In this document: positions 22,502-53,425 of the stretch, piece by piece
How positions within the stretch are numbered: the first letter of the stretch is position 1
How the letters are laid out: the number at the start of each line of letters is the position of its first letter
Origin: Gallionella sp.
GTDB taxonomy: Bacteria > Pseudomonadota > Gammaproteobacteria > Burkholderiales > Gallionellaceae
DNA: 64,000 nucleotides
Reading direction: 5' to 3'
NCBI GenBank assembly: GCA_028710525.1
Contig: JAQTTY010000005.1
Coordinates: 62,001-126,000 of the forward strand
Translations under genes and position numbers: made by a program
The notes under the pieces: model-generated
Database searches by the model: none
Told to the model about the DNA's origin: nothing
What the model saw: only the letters and a program-made list of their open reading frames with translations

Positions 22502-23632
22502 ATGAAACCTATCCCCTTCAACAAACCTTTCATCATCGGCCGCGAGCTCTCTCTGATCGCCGATGCCGTCGCGCTGGGGCATCTGTCAGGTGATGGGGCT
22601 TATACCAAGAAGTGCAATCGCTGGTTCGAAGAGAAACTGGGTTGCGGCAAAGCCCTGCTCACGCACTCTTGTACCGCCGCATTGGAAATGGCCGCGATCC
22701 TGTGCGACCTGCAACCCGGCGACGAAGTCATCCTGCCTTCCTACACCTTTGTCTCCACCGCCAATGCCTTCGTGCTGCGCGGCGCTGTGCCGGTGTTCGT
22801 GGACATCCGCCCCGACACGCTGAACATAGATGAGAATCTCATCGAGGCCGCCATCACGCCCAAGACCCGCGCCATCGTGCCGGTGCATTACGCGGGCGTG
22901 CCCTGCGAGATGGATCGCATCATGTCCATTGCAAAGAAACACAATCTACTGGTGGTGGAAGATGCCGCGCAAGCCATGCTTTCCACCTATAACGGAAAAT
23001 TCCTCGGCACCATAGGTCACTTCGGTTGCCTGAGTTTCCACGAGACCAAGAACATCATCAGCGGCGAGGGTGGAGCACTGCTCATCAACGATGCACGTTT
23101 CGTCGAGCGTGCCGAGATCATCCGCGAGAAGGGCACCAACCGTAGCCAGTTCTTCCGTGGCGCGGTAGACAAATACACTTGGGTGGACATCGGCTCGTCT
23201 TATCTGCCCAGCGAGTTGGTGAGCGCCTTCCTATACGCGCAACTGGAGCGCGCCGACGAGATCATCGGCCACCGTCGCGCCATCTGTAGTGCTTATGCAA
23301 AACGTTTAGTCGCACTTGAGCAAGCGGGCCATATGCGCTTGCCGCACTTCGATGAACACAGCAACGGCCACATGTATTACTTGCTGCTGGACAGCCTAGA
23401 CACACGTACTGCCATGATCGCCCATCTCAAGACCCAGGGCGTGAATCCGGTGTTCCACTACGTGCCTTTGCATTCCGCACCGGCGGGCAAAAAATACGGT
23501 CGCGTGTGCGGCAGCATGGAGCAGACCGACACGCTGAGTGAACGTCTAGTGCGACTGCCTTTGTATTACGAGATGAACCAAGCTGACATCGCGCGCGTCT
23601 GCGCCGCCATAGAAAGTTTCTACGCGCGCTGA
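22502..23632 (+). CDS. wecE: dTDP-4-amino-4,6-dideoxygalactose transaminase (WecE/RffA-like)
   Basis: PLP aminotransferase of the DegT/DnrJ/EryC1 group. In E. coli WecE converts dTDP-4-keto-6-deoxyglucose to dTDP-Fuc4N for common-antigen synthesis. The 376-residue protein follows WecE closely by recall: PFNKPFIIGRELSLI, LTHSCTAALEMAAILCDLQPGDEVI, PSYTFVSTANAFVLRGA, the PLP lysine in SFHETKN (Lys183) and REKGTNRSQFFRG-VDKYTW-DIGSSYLPS. Its dTDP-keto sugar must come from RmlA/RmlB outside the window. The stop overlaps the MBOAT start by one base (TGATG). The WecD-like acetyltransferase that would act next lies in the facing operon at 29.6-30.3 kb. Confidence 0.88.
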   Translation: MKPIPFNKPFIIGRELSLIADAVALGHLSGDGAYTKKCNRWFEEKLGCGKALLTHSCTAALEMAAILCDLQPGDEVILPSYTFVSTANAFVLRGAVPVFVDIRPDTLNIDENLIEAAITPKTRAIVPVHYAGVPCEMDRIMSIAKKHNLLVVEDAAQAMLSTYNGKFLGTIGHFGCLSFHETKNIISGEGGALLINDARFVERAEIIREKGTNRSQFFRGAVDKYTWVDIGSSYLPSELVSAFLYAQLERADEIIGHRRAICSAYAKRLVALEQAGHMRLPHFDEHSNGHMYYLLLDSLDTRTAMIAHLKTQGVNPVFHYVPLHSAPAGKKYGRVCGSMEQTDTLSERLVRLPLYYEMNQADIARVCAAIESFYAR

Positions 23633-25176
23633 TGCTGTTCAATTCCTACGCCTTCATCTTCCTGTATCTGCCGCTGGTACTGCTGGGCTTCTTCGCACTG
23701 GCACGCATCCATCAGGCTTGGGCAGCGGCATGGCTGGCGTTGGCCTCATTGTTCTTCTACGGCTATTGGAATCCGATCTATGTCGGCCTATTGATGGCGT
23801 CCATCGTCTGCAACTACGGCTTCGGTACTTGGCTAGGCAAAGCGGTCGCGCATCGCAAACGCATCCTCACGCTGGCAGTGAGCGCGGATCTGTTGCTGTT
23901 GGGTTATTACAAATACGCCAACTTCTTCGTCGATAGCGTCAACACCGTAAGCGGTAGCGACTGGCAGGTCGGCACCATCATCCTGCCGCTGGGCATCTCC
24001 TTCTTCACCTTCACCCAGATCGCGTTTCTAGTCGACACCTATCAGGGCAAGGTCAAAGAATTCAACTTCATCCACTACACCTTGTTCGTCACTTATTTTC
24101 CGCATCTGATCGCTGGGCCGGTGCTACACCACAAGGAGATGATGCCGCAGTTCGCGCTGCCCGCGACCTACCGTTTCAACCCAGAGAACATGGCTGTGGG
24201 CCTGACCATCTTCTTCATCGGCCTGTTCAAGAAAGTCATCCTCGCCGACGGTCTAGCCGAATATGTGGGCCCGGTGTTTGCCGCGCACGGCGCGGGCATG
24301 CAGCTGTCTTTCATCGATGCTTGGGGCGGCGCGCTGTGCTACACCCTGCAACTGTATTTCGATTTCTCCGGCTACTCGGACATGGCTATCGGCCTGTCGC
24401 GCTTGTTCGGCGTGACGCTGCCGCTCAATTTCCATTCGCCCTACAAGTCGGTGAACATCGTCGAGTTCTGGCGACGTTGGCATATGACTTTGTCGCGCTT
24501 CTTGCGTGACTATCTCTACATCCCGCTGGGCGGCAACCGTAAAAGCAAAGCACATCGCTATATGAATCTGATGGCGACCATGTTGCTCGGCGGCTTGTGG
24601 CACGGCGCGGGCTGGACCTTCGTATTATGGGGTGGCTTGCACGGCCTGTATCTGACCATCAACCACGCATGGCACGGCCTGCGTCGCCGCATGGGGCAAG
24701 ACCCCAAGGCCAAGCTCTCCAAGCCCATGCATGCTTTGGCAGTGTTGCTCACCTTCGTCGCAGTAGTGGTGGGTTGGGTGCTATTTCGCGCCGAGAACCT
24801 CGCCAGTGCAGGCGCAATCTTGCAAGCCATGTCGGGCTGGAACGGCATCGTTTTACCCGATGCATGGTTGGCGAAATGGGGTAACGGCGGCGCATGGCTG
24901 GCAGCGCATGGCGTGCAGTTCGGCGCGACCAACAACCTCATCATGGGCGGCGCGATGAACTGGATATGGATCGCCTTGCTGATCGCTTGGTTCGCGCCCA
25001 ACACGCAACAGATCATGGCCGCCTATCGGCCTGCGTTGGATATGCCTGCGGGTAGCAGCGCGAAAATCTTGTTGTGGCAACCTACCTTGCGCGCAGCACT
25101 ATTGGTCTGGGCGATCGCCTTCACCGCACTGATCAACGTCAGCCAGCAATCGGCGTTCTTGTACTTCCAGTTCTGA
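23632..25176 (+). CDS. MBOAT family O-acyltransferase (AlgI/DltB-like)
   Basis: A 514-residue polytopic membrane protein of the MBOAT family, which moves acyl groups across or at the inner membrane onto sugars. It begins MLFNSYAFIFLYLPLVL, the classic AlgI/PatA-type start, and has YFPHLIAGPVLHHKEMMPQ, YFDFSGYSDMAIGLSRLFG and the invariant catalytic-histidine segment LLGGLWHGAGWTFVLWGGLHG. It is translationally coupled to wecE upstream. It is followed two bases later by an SGNH-like exported protein, the usual partner of AlgI-type systems. The acceptor is probably the glycan made by this locus (inference). Confidence 0.92.
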   Translation: MLFNSYAFIFLYLPLVLLGFFALARIHQAWAAAWLALASLFFYGYWNPIYVGLLMASIVCNYGFGTWLGKAVAHRKRILTLAVSADLLLLGYYKYANFFVDSVNTVSGSDWQVGTIILPLGISFFTFTQIAFLVDTYQGKVKEFNFIHYTLFVTYFPHLIAGPVLHHKEMMPQFALPATYRFNPENMAVGLTIFFIGLFKKVILADGLAEYVGPVFAAHGAGMQLSFIDAWGGALCYTLQLYFDFSGYSDMAIGLSRLFGVTLPLNFHSPYKSVNIVEFWRRWHMTLSRFLRDYLYIPLGGNRKSKAHRYMNLMATMLLGGLWHGAGWTFVLWGGLHGLYLTINHAWHGLRRRMGQDPKAKLSKPMHALAVLLTFVAVVVGWVLFRAENLASAGAILQAMSGWNGIVLPDAWLAKWGNGGAWLAAHGVQFGATNNLIMGGAMNWIWIALLIAWFAPNTQQIMAAYRPALDMPAGSSAKILLWQPTLRAALLVWAIAFTALINVSQQSAFLYFQF

Positions 25177-25178
25177 CC

Positions 25179-26339
25179 ATGCGCACCGCTCATAAACGCT
25201 TCCTGCTGATACTCACACTGTGCTTCGCGGTGACGCTGCTGCCGATGTTCTTGCTCAATCTGGCGCTGGTGAACGCGACGCTGGGCAACACCGACAAAGT
25301 CGCGCTGGCCAGCGCCTGGCAGCAACAGACCAAAGGCGTAACTTATGCGCCCACGCTGAGCGACACACATCTGTTCAAGACGCTGCGCTTGGATGACAGG
25401 CTGCCGGAGATTGATACCGTGGTGATGGGCTCGTCCACGGCCTTGGCCATCACCGCCGACATGTTCCCCGGTCGCAAGGTCTACAACTACGCGCAGACCG
25501 GACACGGCCTTACATCCGTTCTGGATGAAGCTAACTATCTGCTCGCCCACGCGCCACAGATCAAAACCTTGGTCATCCCGCTGGATTGGTCTATAGGTTT
25601 CGTCTATGAATATGCGCCCCCCAACCCTATCGACCTGTCGCGTGCTGCCAACACGCTGCCACGTGCGCCGCAGCAAGTGCCCTGGCTGAGCCGAGCTGCC
25701 GATGCGCTGAGCTATCCGCGCATGGCCGGGTTGATGGAGATGCTCAAAGCCTCTGCTCACACACCCGACCCGCTACAAACCTTCAGCGGCTATTTCCGCG
25801 ATGATGGCGGCGCGGTGTATACCTGCAGCGACGGCGCACCCGCCAAGGATTACGACATCGTGCACCGCGGCACCTGCACGGGCTTCCGCTATGACGGCAG
25901 TGCCACCTTCGCCAGTTCCTCACGGGTGAGCGACGCGCATGCGCTGATCGCGGCGGCGACGGCCAGCAATTCCAAGTACTACCAAAATCTGAGTTCGCGC
26001 AAAGGCGTACCGGACGCTGCGCTGCTGCAACGTCTGGCCGAATTTGCCGAACGTGCCCGTGCGCAAGACGTGGAAGTGCTGTTGTTCATGCCACCGCTGT
26101 TGCCTAATATGGAGCAGGAGTTCTCGCGTCATCGCGAGCTCGGCCCTTATTTACGCACCACGCAAAACGGCCTGCACGCATGGGCGGACGCGCAGCACTT
26201 ATTCCTATTCGATGCCGGACGCTCGGAAGACTTTGGCTGTGACAGCAACGAGTTCCTCGATGAACATCACGCTGCCAGCAGCTGTTATGCCAAGATATAC
26301 ACCGCGCTGTGGCGCGCCTACCCCAACCGGAAAGATTGA
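25179..26339 (+). CDS. Exported SGNH/DUF1574-like protein, partner of the MBOAT acyltransferase
   Basis: A 386-residue protein with one N-terminal membrane anchor (about 8-30) and a periplasmic domain. VVMGSSTALAITADMFPG and YNYAQTGHG form the serine-containing first block of SGNH-like hydrolases, and NEFLDEHHAASSCYAKIY near the C-terminus supplies a possible Asp-x-x-His pair. This matches AlgJ/AlgX/DltD-type partners that finish acyl transfer started by MBOAT proteins. The ATG comes two bases after the MBOAT stop with no clear ribosome site, so it depends on coupling. The specific substrate is unknown. Confidence 0.75.
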   Translation: MRTAHKRFLLILTLCFAVTLLPMFLLNLALVNATLGNTDKVALASAWQQQTKGVTYAPTLSDTHLFKTLRLDDRLPEIDTVVMGSSTALAITADMFPGRKVYNYAQTGHGLTSVLDEANYLLAHAPQIKTLVIPLDWSIGFVYEYAPPNPIDLSRAANTLPRAPQQVPWLSRAADALSYPRMAGLMEMLKASAHTPDPLQTFSGYFRDDGGAVYTCSDGAPAKDYDIVHRGTCTGFRYDGSATFASSSRVSDAHALIAAATASNSKYYQNLSSRKGVPDAALLQRLAEFAERARAQDVEVLLFMPPLLPNMEQEFSRHRELGPYLRTTQNGLHAWADAQHLFLFDAGRSEDFGCDSNEFLDEHHAASSCYAKIYTALWRAYPNRKD

Positions 26340-26341
26340 AC

Positions 26342-27757
26342 ATGCTGCAAACCATGAATCGCTCACAAACTAAAGACCTGCTGTGGCTGCTGCTGTTCGC
26401 CGCGCTCAGCATGTTGCCCGCGCTCAATCTCTATTACATAGGCGAAGAGGCGATCTTCCCCATCACCTCGCTAGAGATGCGCCAGAACGGCATGTGGATG
26501 ATCCAACATCTGTACGGCACGGATGTCCGCCACAACCCGCTGTTCAACTGGATGATCATTCCGGTCGCCGATGTGGTGGGTTGGGCGCATATGGAATGGG
26601 CCGCGCGCGGCATCACCATCGCCGCGACTTGGGGTAGCGCCGCAATCCTCGGTTGGTTGTGTCTGCGCCTGTATGGCGAAGCGCGATTCGCCGTGTTCGC
26701 CGCGCTGCTCTATCTGACTTTCTCCGACGTGATGATGTACCACGGCTGGCTGGCCTATGTGGACCCGCTGTTCGCGCTGTTCATCTTCGCCGCCATCGCC
26801 GCACTGTGGGTGGGTTGCAAAGAACAGCGTCGCGGTTTATTTTTTGTCGCCGCCATCTCCATCAGTCTCGCGCTGCTAAGCAAGGCCTTCACCGCCTATG
26901 TGTTCTACTTCGCCGCCGTGTTGGTGCTGGGTTTGCAGCGTGACTACCGCCGCATGCTACTGAGCAAGACCTCGCTACTCGCACATGTGCTGATACTCGC
27001 CTTCCCCTTGTGGTGGTTCTCACTATTGCCTGCTGGCGGCGCGCAGAGCGGTCGCATGTTCGACGAGATACTCGCTAAGTTGGCCCTGCCCGGCATCTTG
27101 GAATATCTACAAAGACTGGTGAGCTTCCCTGTCGAGGTATGGCTAGGCCTACTACCCGGCACTGCACTAGGTACGTATTTCTGGCTGCGTCATCGCAACG
27201 CCGAAGCCGACGAACAGCCACAACATTTTCAAACAGCCTTGATGATCGCGGGCCTCAACTTCCTGCCTTATTGGCTAGCACCGCACGGCGGCATGCGCTA
27301 CCTCATCCCCATGTATCCGCTGTTCGCGTTTGTGCTGGCGCGGCTGGTGTGGCGCGCGGGTGATGTGGCGATACGCACCACGGCGCGCTGGCTCACCGCC
27401 GCCATCGCTTTCAACTTCGTCGTGCTGCTGGTCTTGTTCCCCTATTACCAAAGCCACTACCGTGGCGCGAACTACCAAGTCACCGCGCGCGAAATCATAG
27501 ACATCGCCAAGGATCAGCCGCTCTACTCCGCCGACACCCGCGCCACCGGCTTGAACGTCACCGCCTATATCGACCAAGCACGTTACCCAGCACCCGCTTT
27601 GATGTGGCCACCGCAAAACTTCGAGCATGGTTACGTCATCGCGCTGAGTGCGGATGAGACGCTGGGCAAGGTCGTGAAAAAATATCAGCTGCTCGGTGAC
27701 GAGATGTATCTGCTGTGTCGCGGTAGTGCGTGCGACCAGACGAAGCCTTTAGAATGA
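26342..27757 (+). CDS. GT39/ArnT-like membrane glycosyltransferase
   Basis: A 471-residue GT-C fold protein with about 10-12 hydrophobic segments. The first periplasmic loop, YYIGEEAIFPITSLEMRQNGMWMIQHLYG...NPLFNWMI, has the acidic pair and E-M-x-x-x-G-x-W pattern of the PMT/ArnT family, which transfers sugars from polyprenyl phosphate carriers in the periplasm. A further family-like segment is LPYWLAPHGGMRYLIPMYPLFAFVLARL. It follows the SGNH-like gene after two bases, with GGAAAG before the ATG. By context it could be the final transferase for the undecaprenyl-phosphate sugar made by the facing GtrB/GtrA-like operon (inference). Confidence 0.82.
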   Translation: MLQTMNRSQTKDLLWLLLFAALSMLPALNLYYIGEEAIFPITSLEMRQNGMWMIQHLYGTDVRHNPLFNWMIIPVADVVGWAHMEWAARGITIAATWGSAAILGWLCLRLYGEARFAVFAALLYLTFSDVMMYHGWLAYVDPLFALFIFAAIAALWVGCKEQRRGLFFVAAISISLALLSKAFTAYVFYFAAVLVLGLQRDYRRMLLSKTSLLAHVLILAFPLWWFSLLPAGGAQSGRMFDEILAKLALPGILEYLQRLVSFPVEVWLGLLPGTALGTYFWLRHRNAEADEQPQHFQTALMIAGLNFLPYWLAPHGGMRYLIPMYPLFAFVLARLVWRAGDVAIRTTARWLTAAIAFNFVVLLVLFPYYQSHYRGANYQVTAREIIDIAKDQPLYSADTRATGLNVTAYIDQARYPAPALMWPPQNFEHGYVIALSADETLGKVVKKYQLLGDEMYLLCRGSACDQTKPLE

Positions 27758-27797
27758 TGCGCACGTTTGCCGCCCCACAGAATCACGGAACCCCACT

Positions 27798-28688
27798 ATG
27801 AAGATCTGCCCACAATGTGATGCCCGCTACGACAGCCCAGAATGGGTCTGCCCTTCCTGCGGCGCAACGCCACCACTAGCCGATGGCTACCCCGCGCTAG
27901 CGATAGAATTCGCCAATGCCGGTGACGGATTTAATCCCGAATATTTCGCGCAACTGGCCGGTCTGGAAAAAGGCAACTTCTGGTTCCAATCACGCAACCG
28001 CCTCATCCTGATGTTGCTGCGCCGCCACGCCCCCGCGCTGACTTCCTTTATGGAGATAGGCTGCGGCACCGGCTTCGTGCTCTCCAACATCGCCAGCGAA
28101 TATCCAGCCGCCGCATTGATGGGCGCGGAGATATTCAGCACCGGACTCGCCCATGCCGCCCGCCGCGTGCCGAGCGCGAAGTTCATCCAGATGGACGCAC
28201 GCAACATCCCTTTCGAAGCACAGTTCGACGCGCTAGGTGCTTTTGATGTTATTGAACATATAGAAGAAGACGAAGCCGTGCTGGCGCAGATCAACAAAGC
28301 CCTAAAACCCGGCGGCATCATGCTGCTGACCGTACCGCAGCATCCCGCACTGTGGAGCAAACAAGACGAGAAGGCCTGCCATGTGCGGCGCTACACCGCC
28401 GCAGAACTGGAAAGCAAAGTGACGGCTGCTGGTTTCGAGATACTAGACAGCGGCTCCTTCGTCTCACTGCTGCTGCCGCTGATGTGGCTATCCCGCAGCA
28501 TGGCTAACCGCGACAGCAACACCGAGCACGACGCGATGGCAGAACTGCGTATAGGCAAGCTGATGAATATGACGCTTAAGGCAGTGATGAGTGTAGAGAT
28601 GATGCTGACCCGTATCGGTGTGCGCTTCCCAGCGGGTGGGTCGAGATTCTTGGTGGCACGCAAAGTTCCAATTAGCAAGGTTGAGTAA
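27798..28688 (+). CDS. Class I SAM-dependent methyltransferase with N-terminal zinc ribbon
   Basis: A 296-residue protein opening with a zinc ribbon (CPQCDARYDSPEWVCPSCG, residues 4-22). A Rossmann methyltransferase domain follows: SFMEIGCGTGFVLSNIA is the SAM-binding glycine loop, IQMDARNIPF and AFDVIEHIEEDEAVLAQINKALKPGGIMLLTVPQ follow in the family order. The hydrophobic helix LLLPLMWLS near residue 225 may touch the membrane. It comes 40 bases after the GT39-type gene on the same strand, so it probably methylates a sugar or lipid intermediate of the locus; the acceptor is unknown. Confidence 0.88.
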   Translation: MKICPQCDARYDSPEWVCPSCGATPPLADGYPALAIEFANAGDGFNPEYFAQLAGLEKGNFWFQSRNRLILMLLRRHAPALTSFMEIGCGTGFVLSNIASEYPAAALMGAEIFSTGLAHAARRVPSAKFIQMDARNIPFEAQFDALGAFDVIEHIEEDEAVLAQINKALKPGGIMLLTVPQHPALWSKQDEKACHVRRYTAAELESKVTAAGFEILDSGSFVSLLLPLMWLSRSMANRDSNTEHDAMAELRIGKLMNMTLKAVMSVEMMLTRIGVRFPAGGSRFLVARKVPISKVE

Positions 28689-28721
28689 CAATGTCGTTTT
28701 TTTGAAAGGGACGGAGTGATT

Positions 28722-28820
28722 ATGAATGCCACGCCCAAACAAATCGACCCGTTGAAAGTTTCAACTAAGATTGTGCGACATTCAAGTACAGATTATCAGG
28801 CACAATTGTTGTCTATTTAA
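28722..28820 (+). CDS. Doubtful 32-codon reading frame or degraded attC
   Basis: ATG at 28722 with GGGACGGAG upstream opens a 32-residue frame beginning MNATPKQIDPLKVSTK. The predicted peptide is unrecognised. The same stretch starts with GCCCAAAC and ends near AACGTT (28820-28825), the outline of an eroded integron attC site, so the frame may be accidental. Low confidence as a gene. Confidence 0.2.
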   Translation: MNATPKQIDPLKVSTKIVRHSSTDYQAQLLSI

Positions 28821-28845
28821 CGTTGCGCATATCTAAGGAGGAGCC

Positions 28846-29163
28846 GTGTTTAAATCAATCAGAAATATTCTAGTAATAATCTCGTTGTCTTCGGCATTTC
28901 TTTCAAATGCGTTCGCTGAGCCGAGCGCGACCATTCAGAATCCTCGCTTTCAAATCCTATTTAATCCCAATGCCCGCGTAGATACCTTCTTGATTGATAC
29001 ACAAACAGGAAAGATATGGCAGTTAACTAAATTCTCCGACATCGAAGGCGAGCCTGTAGTTTGGAATCACATGGAACGTATCGATGACGATAAGCAGCTA
29101 TACCAGTTTGTCCTTCAACATGGCGTGAAAAAAGCACCAGAGTCTGCGGGGCCAGGTCAATGA
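28846..29163 (+). CDS. Small secreted protein of unknown function (cassette-borne)
   Basis: A 105-residue protein with a signal peptide (MFKSIRNILVIISLSSAFLSNAFA). The mature domain contains RFQILFNPNARVDTFLIDTQTGKIWQLTKFSDIEGEPVVWNHMERID; the LIDTQTGKIWQL strand resembles short exported domains often found as single-domain proteins, but I know no function. It starts with GTG (28846-28848) behind a near-perfect AAGGAGG. It is lower in GC than neighbours and is followed five bases after the stop by an attC-like site, so it was probably acquired as a mobile cassette. Confidence 0.75.
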   Translation: MFKSIRNILVIISLSSAFLSNAFAEPSATIQNPRFQILFNPNARVDTFLIDTQTGKIWQLTKFSDIEGEPVVWNHMERIDDDKQLYQFVLQHGVKKAPESAGPGQ

Positions 29164-29167
29164 GTAC

Positions 29168-29230
29168 GCCCAACCCGCCAATCGAGAGTGACAGCTCCAA
29201 AGCGGGCTGCCTTTCACATTTACGTTAGAC
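29168..29230 (+). repeat. attC-like integron recombination site
   Basis: The 63-base site begins GCCCAAC, matching RYYYAAC, and ends GTTAGAC, matching GTTRRRY; the two boxes are complementary at five of seven positions. Inside, GTGA-CAGC can pair with GCTG-cctt-TCAC around a ten-base loop, giving the imperfect cruciform with extrahelical bases expected of attC. The order CCCGCCAATCGAG after the first box resembles attC sites of environmental and chromosomal integrons as I recall them. It follows directly on the small secreted-protein gene. Confidence 0.55.
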
Positions 29231-29248
29231 AATCAGTGCAGATTGCTA

Positions 29249-29647
29249 TTACCTTTTTGAGTCAGACACCTTGCCGTCGTTGAACACCAAAAACTTAAAG
29301 ATCACAAACAGACATCCTGCCACGACGATAATCGCAGCGGCTTGTACCCATTGATGGGGATAGCCGTAACGATCGACGAAGACATAGAGGATGGTGAGGT
29401 TAAGTAGATAGCCGAAGGTATGCGCCAACACGTAGCGCAGCGCAGCACCGGTCGCCGCTCCGCTATGCTCGAAGGTCCATTTGCGATTGCCGACAAAGCC
29501 TATAGTCGCACCGACCAGATAGACCAAGGTCATGGCGAGCTTGGCTTCCACACCCAGATAGGTGATGAGCAGATAGAGGCAGTAGATGGCCGCGTTGCTC
29601 GCGACACCCACCACGCCGTAGCGTATCAGTTGCAGCATGGAACTCAT
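29249..29647 (-). CDS. GtrA family membrane protein (putative lipid-linked sugar flippase)
   Basis: A 132-residue protein with four hydrophobic helices and the family features QLIRYGVVGVASNAAIYCLYLLIT, GATIGFVGNRKWTFEHSG and FVIFKFLVFND. GtrA proteins are thought to flip undecaprenyl-phosphate-linked monosaccharides to the periplasm. A much longer upstream frame exists, but the ATG at 29645-29647 overlaps the acetyltransferase stop in an ATGA arrangement and gives the family length. It is the last gene of the GT4 - GtrB-like - GNAT - GtrA operon. Confidence 0.9.
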   Translation of the reverse strand: MSSMLQLIRYGVVGVASNAAIYCLYLLITYLGVEAKLAMTLVYLVGATIGFVGNRKWTFEHSGAATGAALRYVLAHTFGYLLNLTILYVFVDRYGYPHQWVQAAAIIVVAGCLFVIFKFLVFNDGKVSDSKR

Positions 29648-30309
29648 GGCACGATGCGGTGATAGATGTCTTGCGGTGCGCGGAAAGAGAAACCCAAACC
29701 CGCGTACAGATTGAGCACCGCGAGATTGCCTGCCGAGATGGAGCTGTGCACTTCCTGATGCTCGCGCAGCAATTCCACACACACCGCGCTCCACCAGTAT
29801 TTCGCCAAGCCTTTGCCACGGCAGTTGTCGCCGACCGCGTGCAATACCAAGCCGCCTTTGTTGTGGCCGATGAAGCCGCCTAACTTGCCCTGATAGTACA
29901 AGCCGTAGACGTTGCCTTCGTCCAGCAACTGCTTGAGCCAAGTGTCGTAGCGTTGTTCGGCTGCCGCTTTGGGCAGATTGAAATCGCGCTGGAAACGACC
30001 ATGTGCGAATACGCCGTGGCCCATCGCCAATACTTTTTCCGCATCACAGACTTTGGAAACCGTTGCCTCGGGATGCGCGACCGGACGCAGCTTGTTCACA
30101 TCGGCATAAGGCTCAATCAAGGTGTCGCAGTAGTAGAAGCCGTAGTCGTGCAGCAGCTTCTTGTCATCCAGTGGCGCAACCTTGATGGTGTGATGACCGG
30201 GCGTCTGCATACATAGACGCAAGGCAGCTTCGCTATAGCTGAGCAACTCCCAAGTGGGCATGCCCAGCGGGACAGTGTCCCAAGGGGTGGGTCTAATCAG
30301 TGTGTGCAT
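29644..30309 (-). CDS. GNAT N-acetyltransferase, WecD/RffC-like
   Basis: A 221-residue protein. The C-terminal GNAT core has LGGFIGHNKGGLVLHAVGDNCRGKGLAKYWWSAVCVELL, the acetyl-CoA loop being NCRGKGLAKYWW, then VLNLYAGLGFSFRAPQDIYHR. The N-terminal half (W-D-x-x-x-x-G, then HDYGFYYCDTLIEP) resembles the TDP-fucosamine acetyltransferase WecD in layout and length. With a WecE-like aminotransferase 6 kb away, the likely reaction is acetylation of the 4-amino group of dTDP-Fuc4N or a close relative (inference). It overlaps the GtrB-like gene by 17 bases upstream and GtrA by 4 bases downstream. Confidence 0.8.
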   Translation of the reverse strand: MHTLIRPTPWDTVPLGMPTWELLSYSEAALRLCMQTPGHHTIKVAPLDDKKLLHDYGFYYCDTLIEPYADVNKLRPVAHPEATVSKVCDAEKVLAMGHGVFAHGRFQRDFNLPKAAAEQRYDTWLKQLLDEGNVYGLYYQGKLGGFIGHNKGGLVLHAVGDNCRGKGLAKYWWSAVCVELLREHQEVHSSISAGNLAVLNLYAGLGFSFRAPQDIYHRIVP

Positions 30310-31237
30310 CGTAGGTAGTTCTTCTCACGATATACAGGGGACGCTTCTTGCTCTCGTCGAAGGTCTTGCCCAGATAGATGCCGATGATGCCGAGCATTGC
30401 GATGATGATGCCGCCGATGAAATACAGCGACACAATCAAGCTGTTCCAACCAGGGATGGGCGAGCCGTAGATGAGCGCGTGGCAGAGGATATATATACCG
30501 TAAGCGAAGGCCAGCGCCGCCATAGTGAAGCCGATGCGCACACCGATGCGCAAGGGTTTGTCGGAGTAGGCGATGATGGTCTCGGAGGCAAGCTTCCACA
30601 GCTTGGCGAAGGTGTAGCTGGACTGCCCCTCGAAACGCTCGGCATGTTCGACACGGATGCTGGCGGTAGGGAAACCCAGCCACTGCACCAAGCCACCGAA
30701 GAAGCGCAGCTGCTCGCGCATCTGGCTGAAGCTATCTACCACCTTGCGCGACATGATGCGGAAGTTGCCTACCTCGCCGTCGTAATCGATATCGGCCAGA
30801 TAACTGAACGCTTTGTAGAACAGGCCAGAGGTGATGCGTTTGAGCATGCCGTCCTGACGCACGCCGCGTCTTGCCAGCACGATGTCGTAGCCTTCTTGTG
30901 CCTTGGCGTAGAGGCGCGGGATCTCTTCGGGTTGGTCTTGCAGGTCGCAATCCATCACCACCGCCCAATCGCCACGACATAGATCCATACCCGCAGTGAT
31001 GCCGTAGTGCTGGCCGAAGTTGCGACTGAACTGCACACCGCGAACACGTGCATCGGCAGCACTCAATCGTTCGATGACTTGCCAAGAGCTATCACCGCCG
31101 CAGTCTTCCACGAGGATGATCTCAAAGTTAGGGCTGATGGTCTCCAAGGAAGTTTTAAGGCGCTGGTATAACTCGTCCAGACATTTCTCGGCCTTGTAGA
31201 CCGGCACGATGATGGAGATTAGCGGATGTGAACTCAT
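30293..31237 (-). CDS. GT2 polyprenyl-phosphate glycosyltransferase, GtrB/ArnC/DPMS-like
   Basis: A 314-residue inner-membrane enzyme that loads a nucleotide-activated sugar onto undecaprenyl phosphate. The GT-A domain has ISIIVPVYKAEKCLDELYQRL, EDCGGDSSWQVI, FSRNFGQHYGITAGMD and the metal site DCDLQDQPEEIP. Two C-terminal transmembrane helices (about 233-255 and 270-293) are followed by YLGKTFDESKKRPLYIV, the standard GtrB/CsbB ending. It forms ATGA overlaps with the GT4 gene upstream and overlaps the WecD-like gene downstream. The pairing with that gene suggests the sugar carried is an N-acetylated 4-amino-6-deoxyhexose. Confidence 0.92.
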   Translation of the reverse strand: MSSHPLISIIVPVYKAEKCLDELYQRLKTSLETISPNFEIILVEDCGGDSSWQVIERLSAADARVRGVQFSRNFGQHYGITAGMDLCRGDWAVVMDCDLQDQPEEIPRLYAKAQEGYDIVLARRGVRQDGMLKRITSGLFYKAFSYLADIDYDGEVGNFRIMSRKVVDSFSQMREQLRFFGGLVQWLGFPTASIRVEHAERFEGQSSYTFAKLWKLASETIIAYSDKPLRIGVRIGFTMAALAFAYGIYILCHALIYGSPIPGWNSLIVSLYFIGGIIIAMLGIIGIYLGKTFDESKKRPLYIVRRTTYDAHTD

Positions 31238-32295
31238 GAGTGTCTCTTGGCGAAATGGGCGCGGTAGATTATTTCATACTCTTGTGCCGCGACGCGCCAA
31301 CCGCGCTCGAAACGCGGCACTTGGCTGGTACGCGACAACTGCATCTGTATGGCGTCAGCCCATTCTTGTACGCCATCATTCAGCGACAAGACCTCGCCGT
31401 TCTCTGCACTCACTTGCGGCGCAGCACCGCACAGGTCGGAGATCACCACCGGCACGCAAGCCGCCATCGCTTCTGAGATGACCATGCCATAAGGCTCGGC
31501 CTTGGCTGGATGCAGCAACACGTCGAACTCGGTGTAGTGCGAATCAGTGCTCCAGCCTAATAGCTGATCATTCTGCGGAGAGTCGAACAGATGCTGGATG
31601 TCTTTCACGGCGGGGCCGACCACACGGAACTTAAGATTGGGTCGGTTGTGACGCAATCGTTTGACGACCTCCACCGCAAAAGGCAAACCTTTACGCTGCC
31701 ACTCCTTGCCGACGAAACCGACCACACCGCCATCTGCCGGCACCGCATGATCGGCACGCGTCGCACCACGGGTCACGCCGGGCACAACGGGTGGCGTGAG
31801 CTTGTGTTTATGTTCGGGATAGTAATGCGCCAACTGCGCAGAGATAAGATCGGAGTTGGGTACGATGTAGTGCGCCTCGCGCAGCTCACGGCGCTCTAGA
31901 AACAGCTGCATGGCGACGCGCAAGGACACGCGTTTCCACCAGGGCTTTTCAAATATGGTGGCGAAGGGAGGGCCGTGGAAAGTGGTGACATCGTGATGCG
32001 CCAATCGCTCGTTGCTGTGGATCAGACTGCCGGGTTGCGGATGCTCGTCCAACCAGCGCGTCACATTTTTACTGAAGCACAACAGCGCAGACCAACGCGG
32101 ACGCGGTCTGCATTTGCCTAACTCGACCACGGTGATGCCGTCTGGTTTTACGGCCAGACATTCCTCGCACAACACCAGCACCTCGTGACCGAGGTCGCGC
32201 AGGTTCAGCGTGACTTCCCACACGTAGCGCTCCATGCCACCGACTGGGCCGTAGCGTCTTACCACATGGATCAATTTCATCTTTTCTTGCTGCAT
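31234..32295 (-). CDS. Glycosyltransferase family 4 protein
   Basis: A 353-residue GT-B fold enzyme with the N-terminal VVRRYGPVGGMERYVWEVTLNLRDLGHEVLVL, the donor-domain VVGFVGKEWQRKGLPFAVEVVKRL, and the E-x7-E motif AEPYGMVISEAMAACVPVVISD. It retains a sugar from a nucleotide donor on a cytoplasmic acceptor; resemblance to LPS core transferases such as WaaG is general only. The start is the ATG at 32293-32295 with GGGA upstream; a second ATG lies five codons in. It is first in the operon leading to GtrB-like, WecD-like and GtrA-like genes, with a four-base overlap to the next. Confidence 0.87.
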   Translation of the reverse strand: MQQEKMKLIHVVRRYGPVGGMERYVWEVTLNLRDLGHEVLVLCEECLAVKPDGITVVELGKCRPRPRWSALLCFSKNVTRWLDEHPQPGSLIHSNERLAHHDVTTFHGPPFATIFEKPWWKRVSLRVAMQLFLERRELREAHYIVPNSDLISAQLAHYYPEHKHKLTPPVVPGVTRGATRADHAVPADGGVVGFVGKEWQRKGLPFAVEVVKRLRHNRPNLKFRVVGPAVKDIQHLFDSPQNDQLLGWSTDSHYTEFDVLLHPAKAEPYGMVISEAMAACVPVVISDLCGAAPQVSAENGEVLSLNDGVQEWADAIQMQLSRTSQVPRFERGWRVAAQEYEIIYRAHFAKRHS

Positions 32296-32425: not shown

Positions 32426-34429
32426 ATGACCATGCATTCCGACCAGATCATCCAGAGCACGATGCGCGCGCAAGCGGTGTCGGGCAAAAGCGACTACCGT
32501 CCCGACATAGACGGTCTGCGCGCGATCGCGGTGCTCGCGGTGCTGTGCTTCCATGCTTTCCCCGAGCTGTTGCACGGCGGCTTCGTCGGCGTGGACATCT
32601 TCTTCGTCATCTCTGGCTATCTCATTTCCAAGCATATCTGGGAGGCTTTGGCGGCCGGCAACTACAGCATCAAGACTTTCTACGCGCGGCGTGTGCGGCG
32701 CATCTTCCCCGCCTTGGCCATCGTGCTGTTCGCCTGTCTGGCGATGGGCTGGGTGATACTCGCACCAGGGGAATATGAGCAACTCGGCAAGCACGTCACG
32801 GCCGGCACGTTGTTCGTCTCCAATCTGGTGTTCTGGAAAGAAGCGGGCTATTTCGATAACGCCGCCGACACCAAACCTTTGCTGCACCTCTGGTCGCTGG
32901 GCATAGAGGAACAGTTCTATATCGTGTGGCCTTTGCTGCTGGCATTCTTCTGGCGCAACACGCGCTACTTCGCAGCCGGCTTCCTGTTGGTATTGGGCGC
33001 GTCGCTGCTCTATAGCGTGCTGTTAGTGCAGCACGATGTCACCGCCGATTTCTACTCGCCGCTGACGCGCTTCTGGGAGCTGGCAGTCGGCGCCGGTGTC
33101 GCCTACCTCTTGGCCGAGCAGTTCGCGCATAGCGATAAGCTACGCAATGTCATCGCTGCTGTAGGCCTGCTGCTGATCGTGTTGGCCGTAAGCGTGATAC
33201 AGAAGCACGACCTATTCCCCGGCGCATGGGCCTTGCTGCCCACACTGGGCGCGGCTTGTCTGATCTATGCCGGCGAACGCACTTGGGCGAGCCGTACCCT
33301 GCTATCCAATCCGCTGATGGTGTGGGTGGGGTTGATCAGCTATCCGCTCTATCTGTGGCATTGGCCACTGTTGTCTTTCGCCCGCATCATGGAATCGCAA
33401 ACGCCCTCTGCCGAGCTACGCGCTGCCATGCTCGCCGCCAGCGTGCTGCTAGCTTGGCTCACCTACAAGCTACTGGAGCGTCCGGTGCGCGCACGTCCGC
33501 ACACGCGCAAAGGCATCTGGGTGTTGTCACTGCTGATGGTGTTGCTGGGTGTGGGCGGCTTGATCGTGAAGAAGACCGACGGCATCAAGTCGCGCCAACT
33601 CTCCATGCTCAACGGCGACCCTACGACGCTCACCATAGGCTACGACCGAGACCAAGTTCAGCACGATTGCGGCCTGCCAGAAGCCGAGAAAGCCAACTTC
33701 CAATATTGCTTTAGCAGCGGAGCGAGCCCGCAGCACTACGCGCTGTTCGGTGACAGCAAAGCCGAGGCTTTGTATTACGGTCTGGCGCGTGCGAAGAATT
33801 CAGCTATGTCTTGGCTGATGATAGGCACGGTATATCCCCCGCTGCCCAATGCCGCCGCAGACGATAAGCAGCAGCACAAGAACCGCCTCGCGGTAGACAC
33901 CTTAAGCGCGAACCCTGAGCTTAAAGTCATCGCCATCACCGTGGCCTTACGCGGCATCGCGCCGGTGAACGAGGAAACGGGCTTCATCAACGGTGCAATC
34001 TACGCCGGCAGCGTAGCGAACTACAGCGCCACCATCTCGCGCTTCGAACAGGCAGGTAAGCGTGTGGTGTGGGTGATAGACAATCCCACCTTCCCCGATC
34101 CGCGCAGCTGTCTCAGCGGCGGCGCAACTTCCAGCCCGATGCTGAACACCGTGCTGCGCCGCAAGGAAAATCCGTATTGCACGATAAGTTATAGCAGCCA
34201 TCTGGCCGGCACTCGTGCCTACCGTGACTTCGTCGCACAGCTACAAAGTTTGCATCCCAATATGGTGGTGTACGACCCCACGCCACTGCTGTGTGACATC
34301 CCGAACAACGTGTGTCGTGTCACGCAGGACGGCAAGTTCCTATACAGCTATGGTGATCACATCTCAGATTTTGCGAACGCCAAGATCGCGAAGGATATGG
34401 AAGAGAAGTTGAAAGCTGCTGGCTTGTAA
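32426..34429 (+). CDS. OafA/YrhL-type acyltransferase 3 with C-terminal SGNH domain
   Basis: A 667-residue membrane acyltransferase that O-acylates surface polysaccharides. Residues about 20-370 form the acyltransferase-3 module with YRPDIDGLRAIAVLAVLCFHAFP, FVGVDIFFVISGYLIS, FYARRVRRIFPAL and LHLWSLGIEEQFYIVWPLL. After the last helix the periplasmic SGNH domain (about 420-667) carries YALFGDSKAEALYYGL and a late GDHISDF that can supply Asp and His. The length is typical for the fused OafA/OatA type. It is divergent from the GT4 gene and convergent with the waaE-like gene, one base between stops. It may decorate the O-antigen encoded next door. Confidence 0.93.
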   Translation: MTMHSDQIIQSTMRAQAVSGKSDYRPDIDGLRAIAVLAVLCFHAFPELLHGGFVGVDIFFVISGYLISKHIWEALAAGNYSIKTFYARRVRRIFPALAIVLFACLAMGWVILAPGEYEQLGKHVTAGTLFVSNLVFWKEAGYFDNAADTKPLLHLWSLGIEEQFYIVWPLLLAFFWRNTRYFAAGFLLVLGASLLYSVLLVQHDVTADFYSPLTRFWELAVGAGVAYLLAEQFAHSDKLRNVIAAVGLLLIVLAVSVIQKHDLFPGAWALLPTLGAACLIYAGERTWASRTLLSNPLMVWVGLISYPLYLWHWPLLSFARIMESQTPSAELRAAMLAASVLLAWLTYKLLERPVRARPHTRKGIWVLSLLMVLLGVGGLIVKKTDGIKSRQLSMLNGDPTTLTIGYDRDQVQHDCGLPEAEKANFQYCFSSGASPQHYALFGDSKAEALYYGLARAKNSAMSWLMIGTVYPPLPNAAADDKQQHKNRLAVDTLSANPELKVIAITVALRGIAPVNEETGFINGAIYAGSVANYSATISRFEQAGKRVVWVIDNPTFPDPRSCLSGGATSSPMLNTVLRRKENPYCTISYSSHLAGTRAYRDFVAQLQSLHPNMVVYDPTPLLCDIPNNVCRVTQDGKFLYSYGDHISDFANAKIAKDMEEKLKAAGL

Positions 34430-48203: not shown

Positions 48204-49274
48204 TCAATTAACACTATAGCTCTCAACTGTTTTGCGGAATCCATCTTCAAGCGAGGTCCAAGGTGCCCAACCAAGTTTCCTTGCAAGGTCAATATTTGGG
48301 CTGGTTACTTGAATGCTACTTGTAACGTATTGCCCTGTATCCTCACGATGCTCAAATCCAACTTTGATTTCTTTTTCTGGATAAAGCTCTGCTAGCATCT
48401 TTGCCAAATCACGAATGCTTATCTCACAATCCGGATTCCCAATGTTATAGGCTTGCGCACTTGCTCCACACAACAACACCAACCAAAATCCTGCTGTTGC
48501 ATCAGCAAGGTAGCAAAATGCTCGCCTCGCCAACCCATTGCTTCTCAATGTGATGTCTTTTCCATTTACCACGTCTGACACAAAGTCAGCGTATACACGT
48601 CCATCGTCAAGCTGCATTCCTGGACCATAAGTGTGAAAGGGCCTTACTATTTTGGCTGGAACCCCATACTGATGATGCCAAGATACGCACATATTTTCAC
48701 CCATGCGCTTGCTCTCTGCATAACACGAGCGAACTGCTAATGGATCAAGATATCCATAGTCATTTTCGGAAGTTGGCACGTGTATAGCTTCGCCATATAC
48801 CTCTGCGCTGCTAAAGTACAAGAAACTCTCTACCTTATTTCTTCGTGCCAGTTCGAGCAGATGGGCAGTACCCATTGTATTCGCGCTTAGTGTCCCCACT
48901 GGATCAGTAGCATAGAATTTCGGGCTGGCTTGGCTAGCTGCGTGAATCATGAAATCGACTTTCTTGTCGATTAGCATTGCGGTACTAATGTCATGTTCTA
49001 CAACAATTAAATCAGACCGGTTTATATGATGATTAAACCTTTTATTAAATCTGGCGCTACTTCTTACTACTGCAATAACAGTGACATTCAACTTTTTAAC
49101 ATCATTAAGGAACAATAATGTTTCGACCATATATGCAGCCAAAAAGCCGGCCGCACCTGTAATTAATACAGTCTTTTCACCCAACTTCTCCCATGGAATA
49201 CTTCGAATATTTGTAATACTCTCTAAGTCAGCCGCAATGATTGAGCGATTATTTCCACTACCATCGCCTTTCAA
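48204..49274 (-). CDS. SDR-family NDP-sugar reductase/epimerase at the end of the CDP-deoxyhexose genes
   Basis: A 356-residue extended SDR with an N-terminal extension (SIIAADLESITNIRSIPWEKLGEK), the loop VLITGAAGFLAAYMVETLL, FMIHAASQASPKFYATDP, LYFSSAEVYGE and the catalytic CYAESKRMGENMC. It resembles the decarboxylase/epimerase-like group found beside rfbFGH. By position it may reduce the keto group of the YerE product, the role of YerF in Yersinia, but that is inference. The start is TTG at 49274 with GGGAG upstream, overlapping the previous stop as TTGA; no usable ATG precedes the glycine loop. Confidence 0.8.
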   Translation of the reverse strand: MKGDGSGNNRSIIAADLESITNIRSIPWEKLGEKTVLITGAAGFLAAYMVETLLFLNDVKKLNVTVIAVVRSSARFNKRFNHHINRSDLIVVEHDISTAMLIDKKVDFMIHAASQASPKFYATDPVGTLSANTMGTAHLLELARRNKVESFLYFSSAEVYGEAIHVPTSENDYGYLDPLAVRSCYAESKRMGENMCVSWHHQYGVPAKIVRPFHTYGPGMQLDDGRVYADFVSDVVNGKDITLRSNGLARRAFCYLADATAGFWLVLLCGASAQAYNIGNPDCEISIRDLAKMLAELYPEKEIKVGFEHREDTGQYVTSSIQVTSPNIDLARKLGWAPWTSLEDGFRKTVESYSVN

Positions 49275-50998
49275 TTTGCGCTCCCACTGAAAACTTCCAT
49301 GGATGGATATTGCTCATCCAGTTTTGAGCCGAAGGCTAATCGTGGGCGGCACTCCGTTGCGCCATCCATCATCAGTTCGATAAGCAACGGCCCTTTATGT
49401 TGAGGTATGCGGCTTAAGGCAATTTCCATTTCTGTTTCGTTATGTACACGACATGCCTCAATACCATAGGCTTTGGCAATGTCTGCAAATTGGGGGCTGC
49501 TGTATCCTTTTTTAGTCGATTGATCTCGTCCATCGAAATACATGTCTTGAAAGTTTTTCACCATGCCCAATACTGAGTTGTTCATCACGATGATGGTCAT
49601 ATCTAGCCCAAGTCGATTGAGCGTGTCCAGCTCCTGAATATTGATTTGCAGACTCCCGTCACCCGTGATGACAACAACCTTGTGCTTGGATTGAATGCCG
49701 ATACCTAGCGCGGTCGGCAGGGCGAAACCCATCGCCCCCATACCGCCGCTGTAATGAACCGCCTGATTGGGTGATAGTCGCAGACTTTGCGCGGCCCACA
49801 TCTGATGATTGCCGACATCGCAAACGTAATCGACAGGATGGTCACTCAGCAATTTGTTGAGCGATTTAAATAGGATACTTGGACTGATCTTCCAGTCTGC
49901 ATATTCATTAACTTCGCAGCGCTCTCTCAGGTGAGTCAAGGCGTGTATCCATGCAAGATCTAATTTCGGAAAGGCATTTTTAGAGGGTGGAAATTCACGG
50001 AAGAACCCTTCGGCAGAGGCACAGATGCTCATATCTGCCTGCACTCTATTTTCCAGCTGAGCGGGGTCGATATCTATCTGAACAACTTTTGCATGGCGCG
50101 CAAAGTCCTCTACATCTGATCCCGTTTGGCGTACGTCCAACCGAGCACCCACCACGATCAACAGATCACAGTTTTGTACTGCCCAGTTGGCTTCACGATT
50201 GCCGTAACTGCCTATCATATTGAAATAGTTGTTACGTGCGACCACACGTTCATGGCCCATCAATGTGGACACGTAGGGAATCCCTAACGTATCCGCGGCC
50301 AACAGCCATTGATCCATGGCATTGGCCCAGCGCGCTCCACCGCCTATGCAAATTAAAGGGCGCAGTGCGTCCTTGCAAAGGGCCGCTAATTTCTCAATGT
50401 CATTCGGTTGCATTTTCAATTCAGCGCTGATTGATAATGGTTTGGACAACCATTCCTCAACGAGCGTATCTGGAATATCGGCGCGTTGCACATCATTTGG
50501 TATATCTATTAAAACTGGCCCTTGTCGTCCACTTAACGCTGCCGATATAGCACGATGCAAAGCGGGCAGTAGATCTTCAGCTTTATCCACTCTTGCCGCA
50601 TACTTGGTCAAAGACTTAGTGACTTCAACGATATCTAACTCTTGAAAACCTTGCTGCCGAATCGCTCGCTCGCCCCTAAGTTCGCGCGTGTTGACCTGGC
50701 CGGTTATGAATAGGCAAGGTACAGAATCGAACCAGCAACTTCCTATACCTGTAATCAGGTTAGTCGCTCCCGGTCCACTTGTACCCATCGCTACCGCAAT
50801 CGTTTTCCCCTTGGTATGTCTTGCAACACCTTCTGCAGCAAAGGCAGCTGACTGTTCGTGGTGCATTGAGACTATGTTGAACTGTCCTGATTCGGCATAG
50901 CTATCCAAAAGATGGGTGATCATGCCGCCCACCAGCTCAAAGCAAGTTTGAACCTTATGGGTAATCAGAAATTTGGCGACTGCGTCAGATGCTTTCAA
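49271..50998 (-). CDS. Thiamine-diphosphate carboligase, YerE-like (acetolactate-synthase superfamily)
   Basis: A 575-residue TPP enzyme with the catalytic glutamate in MHHEQSAAFAAEGVA, FAD-region GTSGPGATNLITGIGSCW, QELDIVEVTKSLTKYA and the TPP-Mg motif ITGDGSLQINIQELDTLNRLGLDMTIIVMNN. It sits between rfbH and an SDR in a CDP-3,6-dideoxyhexose operon, exactly where Yersinia pseudotuberculosis O:VI has yerE. YerE attaches a two-carbon unit from pyruvate to C-4 of CDP-4-keto-3,6-dideoxyglucose. An ordinary acetolactate synthase is less likely because no small subunit or ilv gene adjoins. The start is TTG at 50998 with AGGA upstream. Confidence 0.82.
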   Translation of the reverse strand: MKASDAVAKFLITHKVQTCFELVGGMITHLLDSYAESGQFNIVSMHHEQSAAFAAEGVARHTKGKTIAVAMGTSGPGATNLITGIGSCWFDSVPCLFITGQVNTRELRGERAIRQQGFQELDIVEVTKSLTKYAARVDKAEDLLPALHRAISAALSGRQGPVLIDIPNDVQRADIPDTLVEEWLSKPLSISAELKMQPNDIEKLAALCKDALRPLICIGGGARWANAMDQWLLAADTLGIPYVSTLMGHERVVARNNYFNMIGSYGNREANWAVQNCDLLIVVGARLDVRQTGSDVEDFARHAKVVQIDIDPAQLENRVQADMSICASAEGFFREFPPSKNAFPKLDLAWIHALTHLRERCEVNEYADWKISPSILFKSLNKLLSDHPVDYVCDVGNHQMWAAQSLRLSPNQAVHYSGGMGAMGFALPTALGIGIQSKHKVVVITGDGSLQINIQELDTLNRLGLDMTIIVMNNSVLGMVKNFQDMYFDGRDQSTKKGYSSPQFADIAKAYGIEACRVHNETEMEIALSRIPQHKGPLLIELMMDGATECRPRLAFGSKLDEQYPSMEVFSGSAN

Positions 50999-51022
50999 TG
51001 CTTATCCTAACTTTGGGCTGGA

Positions 51023-52336: not shown

Positions 52337-52345
52337 TTAGGACTC

Positions 52346-53425
52346 CTAGTTAATTTGTGTTGAATTTGTGTACTTGGCAATCTGAAGCAAGGTCAGTTCC
52401 CGCATGTCTTGTCCGTCGCGATAGGCTTGATGCCAATCGGCTATTGCTATCAGCGCTTCACCCAGACGCCAGCGTGGATGCCAATCTAAGCGCCCTTTAG
52501 CCTTTGAGCAATCTAGCTTGAGGTAGTGCGCTTCATGTGGATGTTCACCGCTATCCAATTCCCAGCACGCGCCTTCGCCCCATGCAGTGGTGAGTTTTTC
52601 TACTATCCATTGCACTGGTTTGGCATCTTCGTCATTAGGGCCGAAGTTCCAGCCTTCTGCGTAGTCCGCGCCTGATTCATAGAGCTTCTGAGCCAGCAAT
52701 AGATAGCCCGACAAGGGTTCGAGTACATGTTGCCATGGTCTAATTGCATGTGGATTACGGATGCGTACAGCTTGATCTACTTCGATTGCACGCATGATGT
52801 CAGGTATTAGTCGGTCGTCTGCCCAATCACCACCTCCAATCACATTGCCTGCGCGACCTGAAGCTATTGCGACACCGTGCTGCGAATATTTTTCAGGATG
52901 AAAGTAAGAGTTGCGATAAGCTGCTGTGACTAATTCGGCACAACCTTTGCTGCTGGAATAAGGATCGTAGCCACCCATGGCTTCATTCTCACGATAACCC
53001 CAGACCCATTCACGATTCTCGTAACACTTGTCGGTTGTGACATTGACCACGGCCTTGACGCTCTTAGTACTGCGCACAGCTTCAAGCAGGTTGACCACGC
53101 CCATCACGTTGGTGGAATAGGTCTCAACCGGCTCGACATATGAATAGCGCACCAAGGGTTGAGCCGCCATGTGAATCACAATCTCAGGCTGGTGTTCAGC
53201 AAATACTGCCTTTAGATGTGCTAAATCTCGGATATCACCAATGACGCTTGTCATGCCCTTAGTGATACCGGCGACTTCAAATATACTAGGCGTTGTTGGC
53301 GGAGCTAGGGCATATCCGACCACTTCCGCCCCCATAGATTGCAGCCAGAGCGATAGCCAACTGCCTTTAAAACCAGTATGTCCTGTCAAGAGTATGCGCT
53401 TACCCTTCCAAAATGCAGCGTTCAC
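52346..53425 (-). CDS. rfbG: CDP-glucose 4,6-dehydratase (RfbG/DdhB)
   Basis: NAD-dependent SDR that turns CDP-glucose into CDP-4-keto-6-deoxyglucose. The 359-residue protein begins around [29 protein letters not shown] and contains [51 protein letters not shown] and [19 protein letters not shown] with the catalytic YxxxK-type triad, then [18 protein letters not shown]. The preferred start is GTG at 53425, forming a GTGA overlap with the rfbF stop and preceded by GGAAGG; a TTG at 53440 would add five residues. It lies nine bases before rfbH. Confidence 0.94.

Follow-up and report, generated by a model that had tools for sequence, protein, structure and literature searches.

A split Gallionella locus predicted to encode an Arn-like route for periplasmic transfer of an N-acylated 4-amino-4,6-dideoxyhexose

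Gene Content of the Locus

We analyzed a 64,000-nt stretch of DNA (the window) from Gallionella sp. (GCA_028710525.1, contig JAQTTY010000005.1, positions 62,001–126,000), in which positions 22502..32295 carry ten open reading frames (ORFs) in two facing series, six forward (22502–29163) and four reverse (29249–32295). All the ORFs named by a first-pass annotation, which had read the locus as a lipid-linked periplasmic glycosylation system for a 4-acetamido sugar, were present at their coordinates. That reading proved right in substance, and the gene set probably specifies a three-component, Arn-like pathway that uses an N-acylated 4-amino-4,6-dideoxyhexose for glycosylation. The features are as follows.

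22502..23632, +: WecE-type sugar 4-aminotransferase (TIGR02379, PRK11706, PDB matches 4piw/6blg)
23632..25176, +: MBOAT (DltB/AlgI-like), O-acyltransferase partner (PF03062, 129 bits)
25179..26339, +: SGNH-like, DUF1574-related protein, putative MBOAT partner (sub-threshold PF07611)
26342..27757, +: ArnT-like GT-C transferase (PMT_2 match, ArnT fold)
27798..28688, +: S-adenosylmethionine (SAM) methyltransferase, predicted sugar tailoring (PF08241, 59.3 bits)
28846..29163, +: small ORF with a signal-like N-terminus, between both operons
29249..29647, −: GtrA, predicted flippase for the lipid-linked sugar (PF04138, 67.1 bits)
29644..30309, −: WecD-fold GNAT, predicted N-acetyltransferase of the 4-amino sugar (fold match to WecD)
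30293..31237, −: GtrB/ArnC-type GT2, predicted undecaprenyl-phosphate sugar synthase (PDB match to GtrB 5ekp)
31234..32295, −: GT4 glycosyltransferase in the same operon as the GT2 (PF13692, 66.2 bits)

Neighboring genes of the reverse series overlap by 4, 17 and 4 bases (GT4/GT2, GT2/GNAT and GNAT/GtrA). The small ORF had no match among Pfam or NCBIfam models, and a promoter/terminator scan was uninformative, with one promoter-like and five terminator-like sites where shuffled sequence gave means of 5.9 and 8.8. An acyltransferase-3 protein fused to an SGNH domain (32426–34429, +) adjoins the module and is a further O-acetylation candidate.

Family and Fold Assignments

The aminotransferase scored 580.7 bits against the WecE model TIGR02379 (cut-off 434.85) and 611.1 bits against PRK11706 (cut-off 375), with a DegT family match of 308.5 bits in Pfam. 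Its best PDB matches were WecE 4piw and 6blg (488 and 482 bits), with ArnB (183 bits) and QdtB (150 bits) further down. In a DegT tree of 140 rows (138 different, two being duplicates, with the L106 gene entering twice through L153), the 98 WecE-type rows formed one branch with 100% support in the Shimodaira–Hasegawa-like approximate likelihood ratio test (SH-aLRT). Score, structures and tree position thus uphold the call of a WecE-like 4-aminotransferase, and a 3-aminotransferase identity (FdtB-like) was rejected on the TIGR02379 score and the PDB matches. The lysine of the HETKN motif, which we take to be the pyridoxal phosphate lysine, was invariant in 98/98 aligned rows. Escherichia coli WecE yields the form of 4-amino-4,6-dideoxygalactose known as Fuc4N, and the window enzyme is predicted from its sequence to convert dTDP-4-keto-6-deoxyglucose, most likely to dTDP-Fuc4N.

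The GNAT protein just exceeded the Pfam cut-off (23.9 bits against 23.6) and gave weak matches only in a PDB sequence search. WecD was its clear best fold match, the two-domain WecD fold included, so the placement away from WecD that the first-pass annotation had named as contrary evidence was not found; relatives of the protein do reach the WecD sequence model. It is accordingly listed as a predicted N-acetyltransferase of the 4-amino sugar, a role suggested by the fold.

The GT2 (family match 93.8 bits in Pfam) was nearest to GtrB sll0501 (5ekp, 219.9 bits), with ArnC second at about 156, in agreement with the earlier GtrB/ArnC-like assignment. Its residues 7–305 of 314 align with residues 28–327 of 341 of 5ekp, through the C-terminal membrane part, and D96 and D98 of the DxD motif were invariant across 14 rows. 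Against the ArnC model PRK10714 it reached 174 bits, under the cut-off of 529, and a function in the Arn pathway was rejected, the ArnC-like gene (346 bits) of this genome being located at a separate Arn-like locus. The GtrA call was confirmed by PF04138 (GtrA_DPMS_TM) over its cut-off of 26.1; in the relatives L011, L013, L017, L019 and L172 this slot is held by an ArnE/F-like SMR protein. The transferase earlier called GT39-type is a PMT_2-type GT-C protein (27.7 bits, cut-off 26.1), but the GT39 protein mannosyltransferase (PMT) label was not retained, since the fold is nearer to ArnT, which led all other entries by about 6 Z units with 419/471 residues aligned. ArnT is the transferase that uses undecaprenyl-phosphate-aminoarabinose. 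The GT-C protein had no match to ArnT sequence models at E up to 10, and a PDB sequence search with it found nothing. A polyprenyl-phosphate GT2, a flippase and a GT-C protein are thus encoded together, as in a Gtr-type three-component system.

For the genes thought to modify the sugar further, the MBOAT and methyltransferase families were borne out, while the SGNH-like protein showed only a sub-threshold DUF1574 match (PF07611, 22.5 bits, cut-off 29.1, scanned from 25185) and found nothing in a PDB sequence search. The MBOAT protein scored 191.7 bits against the DltB model, under the cut-off of 375; it recurs with SGNH and GT-C, and the MBOAT-SGNH-GT-C gene order is conserved across loci.

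Co-Occurrence with WecE

A likeness set of WecE loci comprised those most similar to the window WecE (the 80 best of 575, which favors near relatives), and a further 16 loci came from an evenly drawn class sample. Control loci were other DegT aminotransferases of the own genome and of the genomes in the class sample, none from genomes of the likeness set, and were centered on 40 of 43 non-WecE DegT matches (G162:C1:398823, G213:C9:38860 and G139:C11:368792 were left out). Loci with less than 3 kb of flank on one side were dropped (29/80, 3/16 and 6/40, respectively), and neighbors were counted within 6 kb of the gene. Six proteins found next to WecE went into the SMR profile, and the remaining profiles drew on likeness-set loci and the window, so that these loci match by construction.

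Around WecE (51 loci), a GtrB-like gene was found in 43, a flippase in 37, both in 35 and the GNAT in 29, against three, one, one and one, respectively, around the 34 controls. The joint presence of GtrB and flippase gives a Fisher P of about 2e-10, the loci not being independent, and the recurrence of the gene set that the first-pass annotation had proposed to look for was thereby found. The sole control with both genes, L140, is the own Arn-like operon, and the single GNAT match stems from L153, which overlaps the L106 locus, so that it may well be a WecE neighbor there. With the ten closest relatives removed, the counts were 34, 31, 29 and 20 of 41.

The link was also examined reciprocally across the order (399 genomes, WecE in 49). 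The GNAT subfamily occurred in 16 genomes, and in every one of them WecE lay 446–6027 bp away on the same contig (hypergeometric P 2e-16, an overstatement given that seven of these genomes belong to one genus). The GtrB subfamily occurred in 21 genomes, 19 of them WecE-positive, with 18 on the same contig at 1.1–6.7 kb and one on another contig. Locus counts and reciprocal tests together led us to reject a chance neighborhood.

A single GtrB-GNAT-SMR-methyltransferase-WecE-MBOAT-SGNH-GT-C series was observed in L024, L035 and L058. Orthologues of the methyltransferase lie near WecE or GtrB in 19/51 loci, and those of the GT4 near GtrB in seven close relatives and L058; the GT4 is likely a lipopolysaccharide (LPS) core or O-antigen enzyme, and its part in the module is uncertain. 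Close to home WecE is patchy (2/6 genomes listed for the genus, 3/13 for the family), so the module behaves as accessory. Loci with WecE and a GtrB-like gene carry betaproteobacterial, deltaproteobacterial, Chlorobiaceae, Cyanobacteria, Lentisphaerae and Thermoguttaceae labels, many of them on metagenome bins. GtrB linkage is scattered over the DegT tree with 22 changes, some GtrB-minus labels stemming from short contigs.

Other gene arrangements were seen as well. Extra genes without a detected GNAT stand between GtrB and flippase at L112:6010-8221, L113:11057-11719 and L078:7096-7758; in L112 and L113 one of them is a sugar acetyltransferase of NeuD/PglD type that scores over its cut-off, and L078 looks alike by its first residues only. 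A WbqC-like protein (PF08889, 257–286 bits) lies near WecE at L051:8334-9038, L111:6672-7367 and L078:3107-3817, and L117:6336-7019, also near WecE, is WbqC-like by its first residues only. Two wecE loci with unlike neighborhoods (L017 and L060) come from a single Gallionella genome bin (JAUSLX01).

Genome Context and Likely Acceptor

The rmlB, rmlD, rmlA and rmlC genes lie together on another contig of the own genome, and WecF (PF07429) gave no match there with a positive E. coli control; both results agree with what the first-pass annotation had expected of rmlA/rmlB and wecF. A full cluster for enterobacterial common antigen (ECA) elsewhere in the genome was rejected, as WecF is missing and a single WecE was found at E <= 1e-100. 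Contig C10 carries a separate Arn-like operon (L165) with deformylase-, formyltransferase-, ArnC-, aminotransferase-, ArnF- and ArnT-like genes, most under curated cut-offs, and the WecE module is therefore additional to it. An ArnD-like protein was found only at this operon and in none of the fetched stretches of 96 (80 + 16) WecE loci by phmmer with the own ArnD-like protein as single query, which more distant deacetylases could escape. This suggests that the acetyl group stays and the sugar is uncharged, and polymyxin-type charge masking is therefore not predicted.

In eight loci, including L035, GtrB is preceded on its own strand by an msbA-like gene (62–74% identity to L035 msbA), 0–427 bp away and in six of them within 68 bp; model scoring identifies the L035 gene as MsbA (781.7 bits, cut-off 602). 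The window locus stands beside ApaH and the 3-deoxy-D-manno-octulosonic acid (Kdo) transferase WaaA (593 bits, cut-off 524), near a gene with an O-antigen ligase domain. These neighbors make LPS the likeliest acceptor, and we lean slightly towards it. An acceptor among proteins or exopolysaccharides, with the GT-C protein working like a PMT or an oligosaccharyltransferase, seems unlikely in view of the ArnT lead in the fold comparison and of the msbA, WaaA and ligase-domain neighbors.

Further along the window, at 48204–54195 (−), glucose-1-phosphate cytidylyltransferase, CDP-glucose 4,6-dehydratase and RfbH were all over cut-off, followed by an acetolactate-synthase-like enzyme and an NAD-dependent sugar enzyme whose best models were under cut-off; the set presumably resembles a yersiniose-type branched-sugar pathway. 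DegT genes on the short contigs C28 (L146) and C5 (L004) of the genome (G000) group in the tree with this RfbH region (L163), as if 3,6-dideoxy-sugar genes were present in more than one copy.

Departures and Alternative Explanations

A number of observations weigh against the proposed pathway. The protein called WecD-like bears that name in fold but not in sequence, having no match to the WecD models TIGR02382/PRK10975 at E up to 10. In the class sample (WecE in 17/274 genomes) the link was weaker, with GtrB in 6/13, flippase in 4/13, both in 3/13 and GNAT in 5/13 loci. By the thresholds used, 14/51 loci have no flippase gene, among them the near relatives L009, L010, L018 (a weak GtrA-like match only) and L020, and msbA was found in 9/96 fetched WecE loci, plus one control (L126). 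Genome G492 of the same family keeps GT-C, SGNH, MBOAT and GtrB (L168:4017-9249) in a setting like that of the window, close to ApaH and a PfkB-type kinase gene, but has no WecE, GNAT or flippase at the module and no WecE over cut-off genome-wide. In G353 (L169:8645-17668), the place of WecE is taken by an ArnB-like aminotransferase (330 bits, cut-off 631), which comes after GtrB, a divergent GNAT, SMR, methyltransferase, MBOAT, SGNH and GT-C genes. Lastly, L106, L107 and L108, which have no GtrB-like gene, form a small group inside the WecE branch; L106 (from the class sample) has RmlA, RmlB, a WecD-like protein and, at 210 bits (cut-off 325), a WzxE-like flippase, and a WecD-like protein at L108 reaches 198 bits (cut-off 219), which suggests that WecE serves ECA or O-antigen synthesis in this group.

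These departures bear on the possibility that dTDP-Fuc4NAc (the N-acetylated form of Fuc4N) serves a cytoplasmic transferase of a nearby O-antigen cluster of Wzx/Wzy type, with GtrA, GtrB and GT-C forming an independent glucosylation cassette alongside. At about 34–54 kb the window does contain an O-antigen-type cluster, flippase-like and ligase-like genes among its members, G492 retains GtrB and GT-C without WecE, and some WecE loci elsewhere are without GtrB, L106 pairing WecE with the WzxE-like protein. Such a division of labor is nevertheless quite improbable, as GNAT and GtrB are tightly linked to WecE in the reciprocal tests, L024, L035 and L058 have a single GtrB-to-GT-C series that includes WecE, and WecF had no match in the own genome.

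Since G492 and G353 have no WecE at the module, GtrB and GT-C need not be specific to the proposed sugar; the machinery is modular, and the sugar carried may vary. The acyltransferase and the aminotransferase do vary, which raises the alternative that the pathway carries another dTDP-4-acylamino sugar, such as one of the 4-amino-4,6-dideoxyglucose (Qui4N) type, with another acyl group or methylated. WecD-like GNATs of several subgroups occur in WecE loci, the NeuD/PglD-type enzymes of L112 and L113 stand in others, an ArnB-like aminotransferase adjoins the module in L169, and methyltransferases are common. The window aminotransferase, however, lies well within the WecE family, whose E. coli member gives the Fuc4N form, and we regard a different sugar as rather unlikely for the window; Fuc4NAc is the sugar that we favor with some confidence.

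Proposed Pathway and Its Significance

For the Arn-like pathway, we infer the reactions, the sugar, its linkage and the acceptor from the observed families, folds, neighborhoods and reciprocal co-occurrence. RmlA and RmlB, encoded elsewhere in the genome, would supply dTDP-4-keto-6-deoxyglucose, which the WecE-type enzyme would aminate, most likely to dTDP-Fuc4N, and the WecD-fold GNAT would acetylate the amine. The GtrB-type GT2 would then put the sugar onto undecaprenyl phosphate, GtrA (an ArnE/F-like SMR protein in relatives) would flip it, and the ArnT-like GT-C protein would complete the route on the periplasmic side, where lipid A-core or other LPS is the likeliest recipient of the sugar. 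The MBOAT, SGNH and methyltransferase proteins may decorate the sugar or the acceptor, and the sugar would stay acetylated and uncharged, unlike 4-amino-4-deoxy-arabinose (Ara4N).

Xanthomonas wxc genes may be a precedent with the 3-acetamido sugar Fuc3NAc; the portion of PMC2238763 covered did not settle the matter, and a 3-amino-sugar precedent is possible. In the literature searched, with few subscription papers covered, neither a WecE/GtrB/GT-C pathway nor Fuc4NAc on undecaprenyl monophosphate was described, in line with the first-pass remark that a GtrA/GtrB pair using a WecE/WecD-type sugar was not known. According to the parts of PMC11127046 covered, three-component systems are known to add glucose, galactose and pentofuranoses, and the review PMC12826051, in the part covered, lists the E. 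coli ECA, Ara4N and Gtr pathways separately.

A sugar-pathway genome survey states, in the part covered, that Fuc4NAc is confined to Gammaproteobacteria (PMC7725333), whereas WecE with a GtrB-like gene reaches beyond that class, with a different enzyme logic. We tentatively suggest, with somewhat less than even expectation, that undecaprenyl-phosphate-linked Fuc4NAc-type sugars are widespread unrecognized donors of surface glycosylation in Gram-negatives of several phyla, feeding ArnT-like LPS transferases. If true, the WecE of ECA would represent just one branch of its family, this lipid-linked route being the more common partner of WecE, and the module would be a plug-in system with exchangeable aminotransferase, acyltransferase and flippase. 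It predicts an uncharged relative of the aminoarabinose modification and gives an annotation rule for many GtrB and GT-C genes.

Comparison with Known Systems

The module is probably a new variation on the Arn and Gtr pathways. With the Arn pathway (ArnB, ArnA, ArnC, ArnD, ArnE/F and ArnT, bringing UDP-Ara4N to lipid A), for which the own operon L165 offers an analogous gene set, it shares a 4-aminotransferase, a predicted cytoplasmic N-acylation, a GT2 that would load undecaprenyl phosphate, a small flippase and an ArnT-fold transferase. It differs in the predicted use of a dTDP-6-deoxy sugar instead of a UDP-pentose and of acetyl instead of formyl, in that no ArnD-like deacylase was found at it, in having GtrA instead of ArnE/F in the window, and in its separate locus. 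Gtr O-antigen glucosylation (GtrA, GtrB and a serotype-specific Gtr) has the GtrA flippase, the GtrB-type GT2 and a GT-C transferase in common with it, but the module brings its own amino-sugar synthesis genes and its GT-C protein is ArnT-like by fold. The pentofuranose three-component systems (Kelly et al. 2024, PMC11127046), as far as the parts covered describe them, likewise feature extracytoplasmic addition, a polyprenyl-phosphate donor and a GT-C enzyme, but make their sugar from phosphoribosyl pyrophosphate (PRPP), and no aminotransferase is mentioned in those parts. Finally, the Fuc4NAc branch of ECA (RmlA, RmlB, WecE, WecD and WecF) shares the predicted donor sugar, formed through WecE-type and WecD-fold enzymes; unlike that branch, the module has no WecF, and its sugar is predicted to go onto undecaprenyl phosphate and not onto the growing ECA unit.

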